Assembly: GCF_003382685.1 (NCBI RefSeq)
Contig: NZ_QLVG01000038.1
Location: 1-64,000 of the forward strand
Reading direction: 5' to 3'
DNA: 64,000 nt
Source: Halorussus litoreus
GTDB lineage: Archaea > Halobacteriota > Halobacteria > Halobacteriales > Haladaptataceae
Below, piece by piece: positions 13,229-55,499 of the stretch (positions are counted from its first letter, which is position 1; every line of letters begins with the position of its first letter). The translations under genes were made by a program, and so were the position numbers. The notes beneath the pieces were generated by a model that saw nothing but the letters and a program-made list of their open reading frames with translations, searched no databases and had not been told where the DNA came from.

Positions 13229-14169
13229 AGCTCGCCATCCTCGGTGCCGGCGCGGTCGGCCGGTCGGTCGCCGACCTCGCGGGCGAGTACGACCACGCGG
13301 TCACGGCGCTTGCGGACTCGACCAGCGCCGCGGTCGACCCCGACGGAATCGACGTGGCCGACGCGCTCGCCCGCAAGGACGAGTCCGGGCGCGTGGGAGC
13401 AGATGCGCCCGCGGACGCGCTCGACGCCGAGTACGACGCACTCGTCGAGGCGACGCCGACCACGCTCGACGACGCCCAACCCGGCTTCGGCCACGTTCGG
13501 ACCGCGCTGGAGCGCGACCGCCACGTCGTGCTGGCGAACAAGGGGCCGGTGGCCGAGCGGTACGACGAGCTACGCGACCTCGAACGCGACAGCGAGGGGT
13601 CGGTCCGGTTCGAGGCCACCGTCGGCGGCGCGATCCCGGTGCTCTCGACCATCGACGACTACGGCCCCGGGAAGATCACCGCCGCGCGTGGCGTTCTCAA
13701 CGGGACCGCGAACTTCGTCCTCTCGCGGATGGCCGCCGAGGGACTGGGGTACGAGCACGTCCTCGCGGAGGCCCAGGACCTTGGCGTCGCGGAGGCCGAC
13801 CCCTCGTTCGACGTGAACGGGACCGACGCGGCGCTCAAGTGCGCCATCCTCGCGAACGTCCTGAACGACGGCGGTTACTCGCTGGCCGACGCCGAGGTCG
13901 AGGGCATCGCGGACCTACCCGGCAACGCGCTCGAACTCGCCGCCGAGGACGGCCGGACCGTGCGGCTCATCGGCGAGGCGACCCCGGACGGCGTCCGTGT
14001 CGGACCGCGACTCGTCCCCCAGAACGGGACGCTGGCGGTGACGGGCACGCGCAACATCGTCCAGCTGGAGACCGACCACGCCGGCCGACTCAACCTCAGC
14101 GGTCGGGGCGCTGGCGGACCCGAGACCGCGACCGCCGTCCTCGCGGACGTGAACCGGCTCTCCAAGTGA
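13225..14169 (+). CDS. hom: homoserine dehydrogenase
   Basis: A 314-residue NAD(P)-dependent homoserine dehydrogenase that reduces aspartate semialdehyde to homoserine for threonine and methionine synthesis. The Rossmann motif GAGAVGRS is at residues 7-14; catalytic-domain segments NKGPVAERYDELRDL, EATVGGAIPVLSTI, LNGTANFVLSRMAAEG and DLGVAEADPSFDVNGTDAALK are all family hallmarks. The GTG start at 13225 overlaps the ACT gene stop. It ends without the C-terminal ACT domain of longer bacterial forms, fitting a two-subunit arrangement. Confidence 0.95.
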   Translation: MKLAILGAGAVGRSVADLAGEYDHAVTALADSTSAAVDPDGIDVADALARKDESGRVGADAPADALDAEYDALVEATPTTLDDAQPGFGHVRTALERDRHVVLANKGPVAERYDELRDLERDSEGSVRFEATVGGAIPVLSTIDDYGPGKITAARGVLNGTANFVLSRMAAEGLGYEHVLAEAQDLGVAEADPSFDVNGTDAALKCAILANVLNDGGYSLADAEVEGIADLPGNALELAAEDGRTVRLIGEATPDGVRVGPRLVPQNGTLAVTGTRNIVQLETDHAGRLNLSGRGAGGPETATAVLADVNRLSK

Positions 14170-21823: not shown

Positions 21824-22256
21824 CCGGCGCGCGCTGGCGCGACCTCGTGTCGCGCCAAACCGTGCGAGGGACGAGTAGCGCAGGCCGGAGCGAAGCGGAG
21901 TCCTCGGAAGCGTAGCGACCGAGGGCTCGTCGGAGCTTGCTCCGACGGTGGCCGAGCAACGAAGGAGGCTGGGGAGGACCGAGGCGCGGTCGCGGTGCTG
22001 TGCGGTCTCTCATATGCCTCGGCAGTAGCTAGCTTCGTGTTCTCTTCAACTGCCGATTGGGGCGCATTCGAGCTAGCTACTGCTTGAGCCTCGGCGTGAC
22101 CGCAACCGCACCGCGACCGCACCGGCAGAGCAGAGCTCTGCCGAGCCTGCGCTCACATCCGTTCGCGCAGACACCGCAGCCTCGAACCTCCCCAGCCTCG
22201 TCACTCCCTCACTTCGTTCGGTCGTTCCTCCCTCGCGCGCGTTGCTCGCGCGCCGG
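21824..22256 (+). repeat. large nested palindromic element, copy A
   Basis: A 433-bp gene-free element bounded by CCGGCGCGC...GCGCGCCGG. Left hairpin TGGCGCGAC-CTCGT-GTCGCGCCA at 21835-21857; inner arm GAGGCTGGGGAGG 21965-21977 pairs with its complement at 22187-22199; central AGCTAGCT blocks at 22027-22034 and 22071-22078 enclose 36 nt of unconserved sequence. Right end has a CGCGCG-TTGCT-CGCGCG hairpin and a tail ATAAATCAGTAGTCG. I do not recognise the family. Lies between the ROK kinase and LVIVD genes. Confidence 0.8.
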
Positions 22257-23976: not shown

Positions 23977-24137
23977 CCGGCGCGTGCGGGTGCGGCTTCA
24001 CGCCGGGCCAAATCGCGGAGGCCTGCGTAATGCAGGCCGGAGGACGAGGCTTGCGAGACGCGACGCGTCTCGCAAGCCTCGGTCGCTACGCTCCACTGCG
24101 CTACTAGGCCCTCGCGCGCGGTGCTCGCGCGCGCCGG
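23977..24137 (+). repeat. core-less palindromic element, copy E
   Basis: A 161-bp relative of copies A-D that keeps only the ends. Left part starts CCGGCGCGTG; the middle is a single GCGAGACG-CGA-CGCGTCTCGC-type hairpin flanked by CGAGGCTT/AAGCCTCGG; the right end has the CTCGCGCGCG...GCTCGCGCGC hairpin and the same tail as copy A (AAAAATCAGTAGCCG). The AGCTAGCT core and the GGGGAGG arms are absent, as expected for an internal deletion derivative. The remaining 300 bp of this gap show nothing else. Confidence 0.7.
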
Positions 24138-24327
24138 GATCAAAAATCAGTAGCCGAGAATTCGCAACCGGAGAGGGGTAGTCGAGAGCCACCACCGACC
24201 CACTGGACAGTACTCTACGTTCCAAAAGCGGTATCCGAATCGCTACACCGAAGGGTCCGCCGCGCCACGACTCCCGTATGAACACCGAGCGCGCCCGCCG
24301 ACCACTCCTCCTCCATCACGCTCACCC

Positions 24328-33335: not shown

Positions 33336-33775
33336 CGGCGCGCGCAGGCGCGACCTCGTGTCGCGCCATCTCGTGCGAGGGCTGCGTAGCGCAGTGGAGC
33401 GAAGCGACCGAGGCCTGCGAGACGCCGCAGGCGTCTCGCTGCTCTGCGAACGCAGTTCACAGACAACGCAAGCGGTTGGGGAGGACGAGGTGCGGTGCTG
33501 TGCTGTGCGGTTGCGGTCAATCATGTGCCTCGGCAGTAGCTAGCTTTGTAGTATCTACTCTGTTACGGCGAGTACAGTCGAGCTAGCTATTGCTTGAGCA
33601 TAGCCGTGACCGCAACCGCACAGCACTGCAGCCTCAGACCTTCCCAGCCTCCTGCGTTGTCTGCGAACTGCGTTCGCAGATCAGCGAGACGCCGCAGGCG
33701 TCTCGCAAGCCTCGGTCTCCGCTTCGCTCCGACCTGCGCTACTCGTCCCTCGCGCGCGTTGCTCGCGCGCGCCGG
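33336..33775 (+). repeat. large nested palindromic element, copy B
   Basis: A 440-bp element in the same orientation as copy A. Left hairpin GGCGCGAC-CTCGT-GTCGCGCC at 33347-33367; a GCGAGACGCC-GCA-GGCGTCTCGC-type hairpin occurs in both halves (near 33416-33439 and 33684-33707). Core AGCTAGCT blocks are at 33538-33545 and 33581-33588 with a 35-nt spacer. Right end CGCGCG-TTGCT-CGCGCG. No gene is supported in the 741-bp gap (33214-33954). Confidence 0.8.
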
Positions 33776-47133: not shown

Positions 47134-47504
47134 CGGCGCGCGCGAGCAACGCGCGTGAGGGAGGAGCGAACGCAGTGAGCGACGAGGCTGGGGAGGCGTG
47201 AGGCTCGCGGTTGCGGTGTCCCCTAGGCCGCGGCAGTAGCTAGCTTCACGTGTCTCAAATTGGACGTGATCAGGAACACGAAGCTAGCTACTGCCGAGGC
47301 ACATGAGTGACCGCACAGCACCGCGACCGTACCTCGTCCTCCCCAACCGCTTGCGGTCCTCGCTGCGCTGCGGTCCTCAGCCACCGGCAGACGGTCCTGC
47401 TCGCCTTCGGCTGCGCGGGCTGCGACTGCCGAGCCTGCACTCGCTTCGCTCGTGCAGACCTCGCGCGATTTGGCGCGACACGAGGTCGCGCCACCGCGCG
47501 CCGG
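47134..47504 (-). repeat. large nested palindromic element, copy C (inverted)
   Basis: A 371-bp element inserted in the opposite orientation to A, B and D: its right end carries the TGGCGCGAC-ACGAG-GTCGCGCCA hairpin (47471-47493) that is the left hairpin in A and B, and its left end has the CGCGCG...CGCGCG hairpin. Core AGCTAGCT blocks lie at 47238-47245 and 47282-47289 with a 36-nt spacer, framed by GGCAGT and ACTGCC. Fills most of the 565-bp convergent gap between hsp20 and the RimK-like gene. Confidence 0.8.
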
Positions 47505-54633: not shown

Positions 54634-55260
54634 CCGGCGCGTGCTGTCGCGGCCTCTCGTGGCCGCGCCCAAGCGCGCGAGGTCTGCAGGAGCGAAGTCG
54701 TTCGAAAATCGGAGATTTTCGTGATCACGAGAGAGCGAAGCTCTCTCGGACGACGACTGCAGGCTCGGCGGACGCGGTTTGTCCGCCGGTGGACGAGCAT
54801 CGCAGCCCGGAACCGAGTGGAGGGCGAGAAGCGCAAGAGGCTGGGGAGGTGTGAGGGCCGCGGTTGCGGTGCTGTGCGGATACGGTCGCGGTTGCGGTGC
54901 TGTGCGGTCACGCCTCGGCTCAAGCGATAGCTAGCTCCGACTCGTCGAGAAAAGAGTAGATGAAATCGTGAAGCTAGCTTCAGCTTGAGCATAGCCGCAA
55001 CCGCACCGCAACAGCACCGCAGCCTCGAACCTCCCCAGCCGTCTGCGTTGTCCGCGAACGCAGTTCGCAGAGCAGCGAGACGCCTGCGGCGTCTCGCAAG
55101 CCTCGGCCTCCGCTTCGCTCCGTTGTCTCCAGCAATCGGAGATTGCTGGGATCGGACGGGAGCGGCGCTCCCGTCGACCTCGCGGGCCGCCGTCCCGCGC
55201 AGTGACGAACACCTCCGATTTCGGACCACGCTTACTCGTCCCCCGCGCGCGTTACCCGTC
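54634..55260 (+). repeat. large nested palindromic element, copy D
   Basis: The largest copy (627 bp), same orientation as A. Left end CCGGCGCGTG with a GTCGCGGCC-TCTCGT-GGCCGCG hairpin. Extra hairpins are nested in the left half (GAAAATC-GGA-GATTTTC near 54704-54720; GAGAGAGC-GAA-GCTCTCTC near 54730-54748). Core AGCTAGCT blocks are at 54929-54936 and 54972-54979 with a 35-nt spacer, flanked by GCGGTTGCGGTGC and its complement. Occupies the convergent gap between the MalG-like and MalK-like genes; the rest of the 1,012-bp gap (to 55499) shows direct GAGAAGC-type repeats but no gene. Confidence 0.78.
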
Positions 55261-55499
55261 GCACCGACCGCAGCGCCGAGAGAGAAGCGATTCGAGAGTG
55301 CCGAGGGAGAAGCAGATCGAGAGTGCCGGGGGAACTGCTTCAAGAGAAGTTCCGGGAGAGAAGCGTTCACGAGAAGTTACTGAATGCGTAGCTCCGCGAG
55401 AACATCCAGCGATAGCTCACAGCCGAGAACTCGAAACCACCCGCGAAAACCACTCGCGAGCACGAGAAAACGCGCGCGAGCCGCAGTACGGCGACTACC

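Follow-up and report, generated by a model that had tools for sequence, protein, structure and literature searches.

Paired repeat elements in the window

The window, the whole 64,000-nucleotide stretch of Halorussus litoreus DNA that was analysed, contains four elements built on one symmetric plan. Each has hairpins at its ends, GAGGCTGGGGAGG-type arms, GCGGT-rich arms and a centre with two AGCTAGCT blocks. This plan was recognised in a preliminary description of the DNA, and the coordinates given there for the four elements proved exact or off by a few bases. The copy designated "E" in that description most probably corresponds to the segment at 23977-24138, a derivative reduced to its ends that lacks both the arms and the centre. 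The features are listed below; the hairpin and inner ends of element A are assigned from sequence.

21824..22256, plus strand: element A, full head-to-head unit pair; absent in 11 relatives, with H. halobius occupied at the same site
21836..21856, plus strand: left-end hairpin of A (GGCGCGACCTCGTGTCGCGCC); the same end is found at most copies
22022..22034, plus strand: inner end of the left unit of A (GCAGTAGCTAGCT)
22035..22070, no strand: variable core of A, 36 nt, flanked by the two inner ends
22071..22083, minus strand: inner end of the right unit of A (GCAGTAGCTAGCT on the minus strand)
23977..24138, plus strand: element E, a left and a right end enclosing a short hairpin, lacking arms and AGCTAGCT centre
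33336..33775, plus strand: element B, full head-to-head pair
33546..33580, no strand: variable core of B, 35 nt
47134..47504, minus strand: element C, complete head-to-head pair that lies inverted in the window; its H. halobius orthologue has an inverted centre
47246..47281, no strand: variable core of C, 36 nt
54634..55266, plus strand: element D, complete head-to-head pair whose arms contain additional hairpin modules
54937..54971, no strand: variable core of D, 35 nt

The blocks of the four window copies are separated by 36, 35, 36 and 35 nt, as had been noted. A separation of "always 35-36 nt" does not extend to the genome, however. Over 62 copies, the core measures 27-41 nt, with a mode of 36 and one copy of 51 nt.

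Architecture of units and pairs

The building block of the family is a unit of ~140-240 bp that runs from an outer hairpin end (GGCGCGYGCTGG...) to the inner end GCARTAGCTAGCT. In a pair, the outer left hairpin end is followed by a GAGGGACGAG-type stretch, variable hairpin modules, a G-rich GGCTGGGGAGG arm and GCGGT repeats, which lead to a half-site of ~25 nt. The centre consists of AGCTAGCT, the core and the second AGCTAGCT block, beyond which the mirror image continues out to the right end. Some pairs have left-type ends at both sides, and both orientations of the centre relative to the ends are found among the copies. Pairs bear GGCGCG-type inverted ends; the ends of single units are unlike each other. 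Left ends adjoin diverged tandem repeats of ~27 bp (GGCGYGYGCTGGYTTYYCTTTCCACCC) that resemble the left end itself (for example at L063, L081 and L130), and several right ends adjoin locus-specific tandem repeats.

Both flanks of the core are conserved, as previously described, but they are mosaics in which the half-site types differ between the sides. Three types of half-site occur, and the same type is present on both sides in 9 cases, compared with 17.5 expected (P=0.004).

The H. litoreus genome contains at least ~200 half-sites with one mismatch or fewer, against 10 in the control. We took 40 exact half-sites outside the 45 exact pairs described below and scored the sequence inward of them with a half-site profile; the totals from this set are minimum values. 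Degraded partners with scores of 12 to 43 were found at a distance of 27-51 nt for 17 half-sites. The other 23 gave background-level scores (mean of the control, -13.9), with a bimodal distribution overall; two of these do have a partner, at the unusual distances of 15 and 68 nt. This clean split indicates genuine single units as opposed to pairs in slow decay. Similarity ends at AGCTAGCT, and the 15 single units with a located outer end are 137-242 bp long.

Most of the few loci examined in other Halorussus species are also single units ending at AGCTAGCT. We infer that the single unit is the older form, with pairs amplified in H. litoreus and H. halobius. One locus, L358, has two overlapping AGCTAGCT blocks (AGCTAGCTAGCT) and is possibly the insertion point of a single unit.

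Distribution in the genome and genus

A genome scan with the pattern AGCTAGCT, 25-50 nt, AGCTAGCT detected 45 block pairs in H. litoreus, spaced 27-37 nt apart, while the reversed control pattern gave none, which excludes chance. Approximately 17 further copies have one degraded block, and the family occupies at least 60 places between genes. Copy A produced 129 blastn matches to its own genome, many of them partial.

Exact block pairs are present in 10 of 18 Halorussus genomes, H. litoreus counted, and in none of 41 genomes of other genera. The half-site is more widespread in the genus (17 of the 18 genomes), but exact pairs are abundant only in H. litoreus and H. halobius. The other species carry few, several of them with gaps of 9-26 nt. 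A stricter pattern run against ~85,000 species genomes matched only H. halobius and one MAG. Related units are also carried on plasmids of named Halorussus species. A half-site scan of viral sequences returned no match; AGCTAGCT pairs in the viral collection were uninformative, since the pattern is so short that chance matches are expected at that collection size.

Other arrangements of related sequence were observed. One genome contains a tandem array of the AGCTAGCT block plus 25 nt with a 33-bp period and six pattern matches (G005:C1:589247-589452), and another contains the block plus 19 nt with a 27-bp period and three matches (G015:C6:85830-85918). Neither type of array was seen in the H. 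litoreus genome. The Haloarcula rara plasmid CP119786.1 carries a related left end at 13965-14037 (L328), followed by GGTTGGGGAG and GCGGTGCTGT stretches and no AGCTAGCT. Given this left end, the unit's outer half may predate the genus Halorussus.

Insertion sites and gene context

All 45 exact pairs are intergenic according to gene calls made with a simple open-frame and third-position GC rule. Their neighbouring genes are convergent in 14 cases, tandem in 22 and divergent in 9, with no clear orientation bias among the 45.

The genes flanking element A are 665 bp apart in H. litoreus and 629 bp apart in H. halobius, compared with 27-123 bp in 11 relatives, six of which have 48-49 bp. Ten of these relatives were assessed from the sequence of the intergenic stretch and one from the search alignment. 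The empty site in the relatives, set against the occupied site in the two species, indicates that the element DNA was inserted. At locus C, the corresponding distance is 8 and 40 bp in two relatives and 79-264 bp, again without the element, in three more. Two relatives have one-sided remnants at this locus, and both H. litoreus and H. halobius have elements. Among the loci examined, nine insertions are shared with H. halobius on the basis of matching flanks, locus C counted. Target-site duplications are frequent but not invariable in MITEs; none above the shuffled expectation was detected in 15 single units.

Inward-facing units enclosing genes were considered as candidate autonomous versions of the element and rejected. 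At L161 (G000:C29:7647-10271), two such units lie 1.2 kb apart and flank an AT-rich universal stress protein family gene (1006-1716) that looks horizontally acquired, with no transposase between the units. At L142 (G000:C6:115399-117488) and L340 (G000:C11, near tnpB), inward-facing single units flank ordinary host genes, again with no transposase between them. The initial notion of gene cassettes bounded by the inner blocks was likewise dropped.

The central core

A leave-one-out core consensus, calculated after removal of similar cores, gave interior z-scores of 1.43 +/- 0.21 for H. litoreus and 1.52 +/- 0.27 for H. halobius. The positive values indicate that the cores are distantly related to one another. 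At orthologous sites, the cores score as unrelated pairs in eight of nine cases; the exception is locus C, where the core matches the reverse complement of its orthologue. The mean identity is 0.60 for orthologous cores (seven pairs), 0.59 for paralogous cores and 0.55 for shuffled sequence. Searches of the cores against phage and plasmid records, as well as against other DNA around the elements, gave no match. On these results the core is not guide-like but an ordinary spacer, unconserved in sequence and moderately constrained in length. The family is a warning that a variable centre of near-fixed length within a conserved scaffold can arise without a guide function.

Mosaic arms and an inverted centre

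The arms are no closer between orthologues of H. litoreus and H. halobius (identity 0.68) than between paralogues (0.67), which fits homogenisation of the arms within each genome. Direct support comes from copies of the same genome, such as L078 and L096, that share a nearly identical arm or module (up to 98-100% over ~100 bp) but have strongly diverged centres. The mosaicism could in part be an artefact of assembly, as the genome is in 75 contigs. Gene order that is conserved across several elements speaks against this as the main cause.

At locus C, the centre is inverted relative to the ends between H. litoreus and H. halobius. The inverted part includes the half-sites that lie outside the blocks.

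CTAG sites and conservation of the blocks

The tetranucleotide CTAG, a rare site that is usually methylated, occurs in the window at 15% of the zero-order expectation. In the DNA stretches around the elements, from which the background densities were taken, it is found 0.22 times per kb compared with 2.99 expected (7%). Within 100 bp of the element centres, the density reaches 11.9 per kb, approximately 50 times higher, or 2.05 per kb when the two selected blocks are excluded. The corresponding values for H. halobius are 12.0 per kb near the centres and 0.15 around the elements. A rough extrapolation suggests that 10% or more of the genome's CTAG sites may lie in the repeats.

The AGCTAGCT blocks are much better preserved than the sequence around them: the ratio of 45 exact-exact to 17 exact-degraded pairs gives ~80-84% intact blocks. 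Such preservation hints at a role that depends on the sequence. In the degraded blocks, the outer AG and CT are lost about as often as CTAG, which argues against selection on CTAG alone. The genome also encodes a DNA methylase of the N6/N4 family with a TSPPYPM motif (L344, G000:C31, 1264-2301, minus strand), a candidate for the orphan CTAG methylase. Such an orphan enzyme is reported to be widely conserved in Halobacteria, and the papers treat as open questions why the motif is scarce and what its methylation does (PMC6471742; PMC5867850).

Origin of the elements and alternative readings

The repeats probably constitute a non-coding, non-autonomous dispersed family of Halorussus, with units that are single or, mostly so in H. 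litoreus and H. halobius, paired head to head, and a core that is the loop of the pair. The mobile-element reading, one of three offered in the preliminary description, is supported by sites that are occupied or empty depending on the species, by the intergenic location of the copies, by the absence of an encoded protein and by ends-only and one-armed derivatives. The units would have been spread by a trans-acting enzyme that has since been lost or goes unrecognised. Transposition is an indirect conclusion, because neither a target-site duplication nor a transposase with matching ends was found (the Y1 and TnpB families were searched in the H. litoreus genome). Recombination and gene conversion between copies would maintain the similarity of the arms and occasionally invert the centre. 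The core would be a loop between two inner ends, of distant common descent and with a sequence that is not kept; its moderately variable length would reflect the descent of pairs from one with a core of ~36 nt. A spacer may be needed between long inverted arms, which would limit the range of lengths. Descent does not fully explain an unconserved spacer sequence with a narrow length range.

The other two readings fared less well: the recombination site is only partly supported, and the structured RNA and the guide-like loop are not supported. If the elements were such an RNA, their arms would form the scaffold and the core a variable guide. Every copy tested does fold into strong hairpins (z -4.8 to -8.2), but these values follow from the inverted repeat itself, and the search for compensatory pairing was negative: the half-sites of one element are less complementary to each other than halves from different elements (z -2.4), and the core edges gave -1.3. 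The central asymmetry is the opposite of a selected stem and may reflect the instability of perfect long palindromes. Rfam, at gathering as well as permissive thresholds, gave nothing above threshold and only chance miRNA matches. With a consensus shared among cores that look unconserved at orthologous sites and match no phage, plasmid or DNA around the elements, and with no bias in gene orientation, a guide RNA is exceedingly improbable. Inversion at a site-specific recombination site, with AGCTAGCT as the crossover repeats, would account for the flipped centre of locus C and for the two centre orientations found relative to the ends. Since the half-sites outside the blocks are inverted as well, the crossover falls within the arms, and homologous recombination of the ordinary kind between inverted sequences suffices there; inversions of this kind are described for insertion sequences (PMC3004938). 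We consider a dedicated inversion site very improbable.

A different possibility concerns the blocks themselves. The paired AGCTAGCT could be a functional site for a putative sequence-specific protein that reads CTAG or its N4-cytosine methylation. The spacer, about four turns of DNA, would set the distance between half-sites, and the repeats would form a dispersed network of CTAG islands. The depletion of CTAG around the elements and its density at the centres in both H. litoreus and H. halobius speak for such a site, as do the conserved blocks and narrow spacer length in the two species, the encoded N6/N4-family methylase and the question about haloarchaeal CTAG methylation raised in PMC6471742. 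It is opposed by the degraded blocks, in which CTAG is not favoured over the flanking AG and CT, by single units, which lack the second block, by the few and often closely spaced pairs of other species (several with 9-26 nt gaps) and by the absence of a gene-orientation bias. On balance we regard this as unlikely, and the fuller proposal, in which the pairs are a dispersed, spacing-dependent protein site and the repeats are the places where CTAG methylation matters, as more doubtful again. CTAG-rich repeats in a CTAG-poor genome nevertheless offer a concrete place to seek the role of the conserved CTAG methylation.

Comparison with known repeat families

The elements share several properties with the PATEs of Haloquadratum walsbyi. 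As described (PMC3119063), PATEs are non-coding, multicopy sequences with near-terminal palindromes, heterogeneous edges and terminal-only derivatives; they produce no target duplication and are too short for a transposase. These likenesses would allow the Halorussus repeats to be PATE-type elements, derived from IS605-type transposons that lost their transposase. However, no IS200-type (Y1) transposase and no IS605-type relative with the ends of the repeats were found in the H. litoreus genome. Only one of four TnpB loci is near units, but those units flank neighbouring genes and not tnpB. The Halorussus unit differs further in having a second, AGCTAGCT end, often paired head to head, a pairing that is not described for PATEs in the part of PMC3119063 available. 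PATEs are without terminal inverted repeats; Halorussus pairs have inverted ends, and single units have unlike ends. A PATE-type origin is rather unlikely. We read the family as old and non-autonomous, foldback-like or MITE-type in its working, and nearest, as described, to the haloarchaeal PATEs and SMRs, neither of whose definitions it matches fully.

The SMRs of Haloquadratum have inverted ends unrelated to known transposons, no target duplication and no transposase (PMC3119063). The Halorussus pairs have inverted ends too, for which no matching transposase was found among the Y1 and TnpB families, and single units gave no target duplication. SMR-A is, however, homogeneous and ~110 bp long, while the Halorussus pairs are ~260-630 bp, modular and diverged. 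Among bacterial repeats, Correia/NEMIS, ERIC and CIR elements are likewise small, dispersed and intergenic, with long stems and in some cases DNA-motif sites (PMC2229807). The Caulobacter intergenic repeats have been linked to methylation sites in a study cited in that paper. Most bacterial MITE-like repeats, in contrast, have short terminal repeats and TA-type target duplications, and none of those in PMC2229807 has a paired-unit plan.

A similar plan is known from another domain of life, with no evolutionary link implied. Eukaryotic foldback elements have long inverted arms of short repeats around a loop, the same inverted-arm-and-loop plan as in the pairs described here. We found no published description of the Halorussus family in the open-access literature searched. 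The repeats would add a paired-unit type to the known haloarchaeal MITE, PATE and SMR classes.
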